Positions 1,773 to 26,314 of a stretch of DNA of 39,195 bases are shown here, piece by piece. Both the position numbers and the translations under genes were made by a program. The stretch is from contig JALVVN010000024.1 of NCBI GenBank assembly GCA_027023405.1, forward strand, positions 65,585 to 104,779, in the 5' to 3' direction. The notes under the pieces are model-generated. The model was not told the DNA's origin. It made no database searches and was given only the letters and a program-made list of their open reading frames with translations. The first letter of the stretch is position 1; the number at the start of each line of letters is the position of its first letter. The DNA comes from Campylobacterales bacterium (lineage in GTDB: Bacteria; Campylobacterota; Campylobacteria; Campylobacterales; QNZT01).

Positions 1773-2426
1773 TTGGATCTCAATAGTCTAAAGAATTTGG
1801 AGCTTCTCTATGTCGAAGATGAAGCGAATGTGATGAGTCAGACGAAGCTAATCTTAGATGACTTTGTGAAAGAGGTACACACGGCAAAAGATGGTGAAGA
1901 GGGGCTCAAAATGGCGCTGGAGTTGCCGATAGATATTGTGATCGCCGATATCAATATGCCCAAAATGAATGGTATTGAAATGATCCGTTCTCTGAAACAG
2001 GAACACAATAAAGAGATTCCGTGTATTATCACTACCGCACATACCGACACAGAGTATCTTCTTGATGCAATTAATCTCAAGGTTGACGGATATATTGTCA
2101 AGCCTATCAATATTAAAGATCTTATCAATACGATCTATAGTGTGATGCTTCCAATCTTGCAAAAGAAGGAGATCGAAGGGTGTGCACATGTCGTAGAGTC
2201 ACTTGCCGCGTTAGTGGGTGGTAAAAAGATTGAGATTTTGAAGTATATCATTGAAAAGTTGGATGATGAAAATGTCTTTCACGGTTCCTATCAAGATATA
2301 ATGGATGCACTGGATGTCAGTAAGCCGACGGTAGTAAATATGTTTAAGCAGCTTATCGGTGCGGGTATTTTGGAAAAAGTAAAAAATAAAGTCTATCGCT
2401 TTAAGCGTACAGATTTGATTACATAG
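1773..2426 (+). CDS. Response regulator with RepL-like winged-helix output domain
   Basis: This 217-residue protein has an N-terminal receiver domain (about 8-120). The acidic pocket E15-D16, phospho-acceptor D59 (IVIADINMP), T88 and K110-P111 are all present. The C-terminal part (about 138-215) is not an OmpR, NarL or Fis output domain. It reads like the winged helix of plasmid replication protein RepL: a GGKK motif (149-152), a helix-turn-helix ([20 protein letters not shown], 172-191) and a wing ending KNKVYRF. It probably binds DNA as a transcription regulator controlled by the kinase 158 bp upstream. The TTG start is supported by AAGGAG at 1761-1766. The intergenic gap holds an AT-rich stretch and a possible -10 (TACAAT, 1652-1657), so it may have its own promoter. 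The RepL comparison is from memory of the family. Confidence 0.85.
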
Positions 2427-2436
2427 GAGGGAAATA

Positions 2437-3006
2437 TTGAAAAAGATTACATGGATAGTGGTATTTATGGTTGTAGGACTCTTTGCGAAAGAGTCAAGCC
2501 AAGCACATAAAGATTTGTTAGCAGGCGACAAGAGTGATCCAATCGTTGTGATGCAGACCAATGAGGGGAATATTACACTGGAGCTTTTCCCAAAGATAGC
2601 ACCAAAAGCGGTGAAAAACTTTGTAGAGCTCTCTAAAAAGGGATACTATAACGGCGTCACCTTTCATCGTGTGATCAAAAACTTTATGATCCAAGGCGGT
2701 GATCCTACGGGTACCGGTCGAGGTGGAGAGTCGATCTATGGGAAAGTATTTGAAAATGAGTATGCGCCTAATGTCACCTTTGATCGTCCCGGACTCTTGG
2801 CAATGGCAAATGCAGGACCAAATACGAATGGAAGTCAATTTTTCATCACGGTAAAACCGACACCGTGGCTAAACGGCGGTTATACGATCTTTGGAAAGGT
2901 GATCGATGGATTTGATACCGTAAAAAAGATTGAAAACTGTAAAACATTACCGGGAGATAGACCTGCGCAAAAGCAAGTAATTGAGAAAGTTGTTGTGAAG
3001 AAATAG
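2437..3006 (+). CDS. Periplasmic cyclophilin-type peptidyl-prolyl isomerase
   Basis: This 189-residue protein should catalyse cis-trans isomerisation of X-Pro bonds in exported proteins. A short signal peptide (KK then a hydrophobic stretch to about residue 18) precedes a complete cyclophilin domain from about residue 34. Its hallmarks are [19 protein letters not shown], with the catalytic Arg and Gln, then GSQFFIT and the [12 protein letters not shown] loop. The TTG start is preceded by AGGAGGG. The gene follows the response regulator after only 10 bp, so it is probably co-transcribed with it. Cyclophilins of this size with a leader are common in Campylobacterota. Confidence 0.92.
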
Positions 3007-26201: not shown

Positions 26202-26314
26202 GAAAATTGTACAAATCTTTTCAAAATCAGATACTTTTGTGAGTATTAGTAACAAAAATTACTCTATTTTCTTAAATTAGTCAATAATTATTTACTTCAA
26301 TCTTGAAATATAGC

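Follow-up and report, generated by a model that had tools for sequence, protein, structure and literature searches.

The window analyzed in this study, a stretch of 39,195 nucleotides from a Campylobacterales genome, carries near its left end a histidine kinase gene, a promoter-like gap, a response regulator gene, and a gene for a peptidyl-prolyl isomerase. The following features were assigned.

187–1614, + strand: membrane histidine kinase (HATPase_c E 1.9e-19; HisKA 4.6e-4, below cut-off)
1615–1772, + strand: kinase–regulator gap of 158 bp, promoter-like, with a conserved block across related Campylobacterales
1651–1666, no strand assigned: imperfect inverted repeat GTACAATAAATTTGTA, a weak operator candidate that aligns with GTTAAATWATTTAAAC, conserved in relatives
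1701–1720, no strand assigned: TTTATTAAAGTTTTATAAAA, counterpart of TTTATTA-N5-TAATAAA, an element that relatives conserve immediately before the −10
1726–1734, + strand: −10-like GATATAGTT, assigned by its position in the kinase–regulator gap
1773–2426, + strand: response regulator of 217 aa with a receiver and a RepL-type output domain (REC-RepL), open frame with TTG start
1806–2135, + strand: receiver domain, residues 12–121 (Pfam Response_reg, E 2.2e-25, 89.4 bits)
2112–2210, + strand: long alpha5/linker helix leading from the receiver to the output domain, residues 114–146 (AlphaFold2 model)
2187–2399, + strand: RepL-type winged-helix output domain, residues 139–209 (Pfam RepL, hhalign 98.9%, models)
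2437–3006, + strand: peptidyl-prolyl isomerase with a signal-like N-terminus (sequence resemblance)

The TTG start of the regulator is preceded by a ribosome-binding site (AAGGAG, 1761–1766), and in the alignment the same residue is the first one in its relatives, where the codon is ATG or GTG. The receiver, which a sequence-only reading of this DNA had called ordinary, is canonical. A motif scan located the acidic pair E15/D16, the phospho-acceptor D59, T88, and K110 in its pocket; D59, K110, and P111 are invariant among the aligned relatives and T88 is nearly so (alignments A1 and A4). The domain hence combines a score above the PF00072 cut-off with the acidic pocket, phosphorylatable aspartate, threonine/serine, and lysine of that family. 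NCBIfam returned partial response-regulator matches alone, far below their cut-offs and mostly on the receiver. In the AlphaFold2 model (36 sequences; mean pLDDT 89.8, pTM 0.66) the protein consists of the receiver, the long helix, and a winged helix, and the modeled helix is consistent with signaling via alpha5.

The kinase predicted just upstream is present as well. Its likelier start is the ATG at position 217, and it possesses two transmembrane segments enclosing a periplasmic part of ~110–130 aa (motif and hydropathy scan), the H-box HQWRQPL, and N, G1, and G2 boxes. The isomerase gene begins 10 bp 3′ of the regulator and is probably co-transcribed with it; a homologue occupies the same place in close relatives and in most Sulfurospirillum. 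Upstream of the kinase, the genome of the window has a dxr-like frame where many relatives have a binding protein, and no binding protein is encoded at the locus. At L071:15184-15642 the dxr-like frame before the kinase includes a masked stretch (run of N). The contig of 104.8 kb carries, by resemblance, housekeeping genes (dxr, pyrC, purM) and does not qualify as a plasmid, and the conservation of the regulator's neighbors in relatives also argues against a plasmid location. The whole genome contains a single match to PF05732.

The output domain had been likened to the plasmid replication initiator RepL, and the profile searches bear this out. Pfam RepL (PF05732) matched with E 6.9e-7 and 29.4 bits (cut-off 20.3) and was the sole helix-turn-helix family above its Pfam cut-off in this protein. 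The domain lies where it had been placed (about residues 138–215), the matched part being slightly shorter at 139–209, and the GGKK motif (149–152), the helix-turn-helix with its recognition helix (~184–196), and the KNKVYRF wing (200–210) are all found at the positions described. Trans_reg_C, GerE, and AAA+/Fis outputs gave no Pfam match at E ≤ 10, a search in which the HMMER filters discard most very weak matches; this agrees with the earlier placement of the domain outside the OmpR, NarL, and Fis/AAA+ families. When a profile of 28 output domains was compared by hhalign with 14 RepL proteins, the probability was 98.9 and the score 101.7 over 73 columns, versus scores of 40.3 for MarR and 41.6 for ArsR sets from the same phylum. 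The RepL set comprised 11 proteins from plasmid records (ten annotated as RepL and one as ‘putative plasmid replication protein’), the other three being strong matches to PF05732 from Campylobacterota genomes. The aligned region includes the GGKK helix N-terminal to the helix-turn-helix, which is shared with RepL of S. aureus (GGKKLKIVNYIL), and BLASTP against a Priestia plasmid RepL yielded 36% identity over 73 residues. The similarity is confined to the DNA-binding core (profile positions 45–114 of 164), and the protein is not a full-length RepL.

The same architecture recurs across the phylum. PF05732 was matched in 179 of 298 Campylobacterota genomes, the fusions occurring in frames of ~210–290 codons, and all 24 relatives scanned contained both Response_reg and RepL. 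A kinase lies directly upstream of the fusion gene in 90 of the 96 loci with at least 1.5 kb of upstream sequence (some genomes enter this count twice, from two collections); these loci belong to Helicobacter, Sulfurospirillum, Sulfuricurvum, and other Campylobacterota, a recurrence that the sequence-only reading had named as support for its idea. When 84,980 species genomes were scanned, 80 loci were obtained, whose titles read Epsilonproteobacteria/Campylobacterota, Helicobacter, Sulfurospirillum, or Sulfuricurvum except for one labeled Proteobacteria; the apparent restriction to Campylobacterota rests on this single scan with patterns derived from Campylobacterota. Genomes of family f3, probably Campylobacteraceae, mostly carry a stand-alone version of the domain (frames of ~80–125 codons). 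In a tree of 87 columns with an arbitrary root, the fusions formed one clade (support 0.95) beside the stand-alone domains (0.93), among the plasmid RepLs. The stand-alone f3 genes encode a chromosomal RepL-type winged helix of ~80–90 aa that is sister to the fused domain (L014, L016, L018, L020, L029, L033, L034, L036, L037, and L059-L063), and no kinase adjoins them in the five longer loci examined (L059-L063). Two RepL genes in tandem were observed at G215:C22:2870-3585 and likewise on the Helicobacter suis plasmid pNHP194003_2 (L160).

In the loci of Sulfurospirillum, Sulfuricurvum, and family f7 (probably Sulfurimonadaceae, by inferred assignment), the gene before the kinase encodes a protein the size of a binding protein, and those scanned were Peripla_BP_6 proteins. 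Upstream of this binding-protein gene, an 18-bp inverted repeat, RGTAAA-N6-TTTACY, recurs in Sulfurospirillum (type A) and in paralogous type-B operons. Exact copies numbered 35 in 1.29 Mb, versus 1.4 expected. The exact repeat was found no more than 160 bp upstream of the binding-protein gene in 13 of 22 type-A operons (0.01 in shuffled sequence) and 7 of 12 type-B operons (about 0 in shuffled sequence); these promoter counts are partly circular and therefore descriptive, because these very promoters had supplied the motif, and the repeat statistics are not independent, since loci overlap and some genomes enter twice. The stronger point is that the repeat precedes two diverged paralogous operons as well as other genes. 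In Sulfurospirillum its distance to a TATTAT −10 falls into two classes, 18–19 and 28–30 bp, about one helical turn apart (two TATTAT matches attributed to chance, one in L103 and one in L118, were excluded). Genome-wide, the exact repeat exceeded the backwards-read control in six of six f7 genomes searched and in neither of the two genomes searched from the Sulfurospirillum family. The sites are AT-rich, which we counted against the regulatory reading given below, and no copy was present near the operon in the Helicobacter loci. An earlier half-site model, GTNAAAT, exceeded shuffled sequence only slightly and gave way to the present one.

The promoter of the window's own regulator does not contain RGTAAA-N6-TTTACY. 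In this genome (G000) the repeat was not enriched, with 30 sites at no more than one mismatch versus 39 in the control and one exact copy, and the motif of the window's clade, GTTAAATWATTTAAAC, showed no clear genome-wide excess over control in G000 or G248. Because neither motif clearly exceeds the control in G000, we claim no regulon for the window's organism. One site in the window, AGTCAATAATTATTTACT at 26279–26296, is a single mismatch away from the repeat and belongs to a class that is not enriched in the genome. selD is present in this genome on another contig.

In the f7 loci the exact repeat also lies upstream of selD, of yedF, and of an operon encoding transglutaminase, MerT-like, and CopZ-like proteins. 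It is found, too, at the start called for selA, a gene followed by selB; where selA truly begins is uncertain. The cluster divergent from the f7 binding-protein gene encodes a 4Fe-4S protein, a TorD-like chaperone, and a formate dehydrogenase alpha frame. The position of these predicted sites suggests a type-B regulon of selenium and formate genes. The type-B systems adjoin selD, selA/selB, yedF, MerT/CopZ-like, and formate dehydrogenase genes, not every gene at each locus, and the repeat precedes several genes (L041:3503-13453, L042:2866-13065, L043:10518-13907, L044, L055, L068, and L069). The alpha frame of formate dehydrogenase at L043:13347-13907 stops after 186 codons, a place at which one could expect a TGA coding for selenocysteine. 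SelD is itself probably a selenoprotein in G164, G121, G193, and G034, because the selD matches there contain one in-frame TGA.

From this anatomy we infer, with good confidence, that kinase and regulator are a two-component pair in which a predicted, phosphorylation-controlled transcription factor uses a RepL fold recruited once in Campylobacterota. The membrane kinase would sense a periplasmic signal and phosphorylate D59, which would alter pairing of the regulator through the long alpha5 helix; two RepL-type winged helices could then bind an inverted repeat near the promoter and control transcription, in either direction, of presumptive targets. The output domain would descend from a RepL-type plasmid replication initiator, the presumed direction of transfer being from plasmid to host. 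Of the corresponding proposal in the sequence-only reading, the RepL core and the pairing with a kinase stand, and the role as a transcription factor is deduced from anatomy plus promoter repeats in relatives only.

Were the output domain instead a generic winged helix of the MarR/ArsR kind, its RepL label would be a database accident. This we consider improbable. Foldseek did match the isolated domain best to ArsR/SmtB and CodY winged helices (E 2e-3), and Pfam gave weak matches to ArsR (HTH_5; 18.0 bits, cut-off 22), MarR (17.0, cut-off 24.6), and TrmB (16.2, cut-off 25.6), all under their own cut-offs. However, a sequence-profile search found no RepL structure in the PDB, so that these fold matches can identify a winged helix and cannot favor RepL; in the viral library, where three matches reached E 0.001 or below, one match was named RepL (E 5e-3). 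RepL alone passed its cut-off and was matched in 24 of 24 members at E ≤ 0.01, and the RepL profile score was more than twice those of the controls, in an alignment extending to the GGKK helix. A best match to MarR or TrmB without relation to RepL, named beforehand as the outcome that would overturn the assignment, was thus not obtained.

A retained replication role, in which phosphorylation would control binding to a chromosomal origin or an integrated element, would accord with the RepL ancestry, and HP1021, an orphan response regulator of H. pylori, has been linked to the control of replication initiation. The regulator is, however, a conserved chromosomal gene with a kinase, a binding protein, and metabolic genes as neighbors, and the candidate sites in relatives lie upstream of genes with helical-step spacing to the −10, which makes such a role highly improbable. 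It is less far-fetched, albeit still rather unlikely, that the repeat of the relatives serves a different regulator and REC-RepL binds elsewhere, an alternative that concerns the operator and not the identity of the domain. The lack of a match in the window's promoter and in the Helicobacter loci speaks for it, whereas the occurrence of the same repeat before the diverged type-A and type-B operons, which share the binding protein, kinase, and REC-RepL regulator, speaks against it. Returning to the two-component reading, we tentatively extend it to an undescribed class of response regulators, spread over the phylum, whose common ancestor would have captured the DNA-binding domain of a plasmid initiator once. 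Many members of the class may bind RGTAAA-N6-TTTACY, and its type-B branch, acting alongside a kinase and a periplasmic binding protein, might regulate selenocysteine synthesis and formate dehydrogenase; taken as a whole, this wider proposal is possible and somewhat doubtful.

We found no description of RepL or PF05732 joined with a response regulator in the open-access literature searched. Since Pfam models recognize both domains, InterPro may already allow the architecture to be counted. PceP of Sulfurospirillum was rejected as OmpR-type. For BumSR of C. jejuni, considered as a described relative, searching its paper by terms yielded no details of the output domain. Response regulators are classed by their output domains, and a RepL output stands outside the standard classes. 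If the single origin from a plasmid initiator holds true, it would clearly exemplify how a replication fold from a mobile element can be converted to host gene control. For the selenium and formate genes of free-living Campylobacterota, REC-RepL is a candidate regulator and the repeat a candidate operator. An automatic ‘RepL’ label on a chromosomal gene need not imply plasmid replication.

REC-RepL shares with RepL (PF05732) of small Staphylococcus and Priestia plasmids the winged-helix core with its G-x-K-K helix, recognition helix, and wing, but is chromosomal, fused to a receiver, and devoid of both the region found N-terminally in RepL and its C-terminal NP-x-x-IFKG part. Like the OmpR/PhoB, NarL/FixJ, and NtrC regulators it combines a receiver with a C-terminal DNA-binding output and a kinase partner, yet its output matches none of their families; Foldseek matches of the whole model, to receivers and NarL/FixJ-type regulators, have high rmsd and arise chiefly through the receiver. 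HP1021-type proteins, likened here by description only, are also Campylobacterota regulators outside the standard output classes, but are orphan and larger. Three-part sensing, in which a periplasmic binding protein feeds a kinase, is known from systems of the LuxPQ and TorTS kind. Those relatives resemble them in which a single operon encodes the regulator, a Peripla_BP_6 protein, and a kinase, the latter in some cases with a 4HB sensor; the REC-RepL systems differ from them in their RepL output, and the window's locus in having no binding protein.
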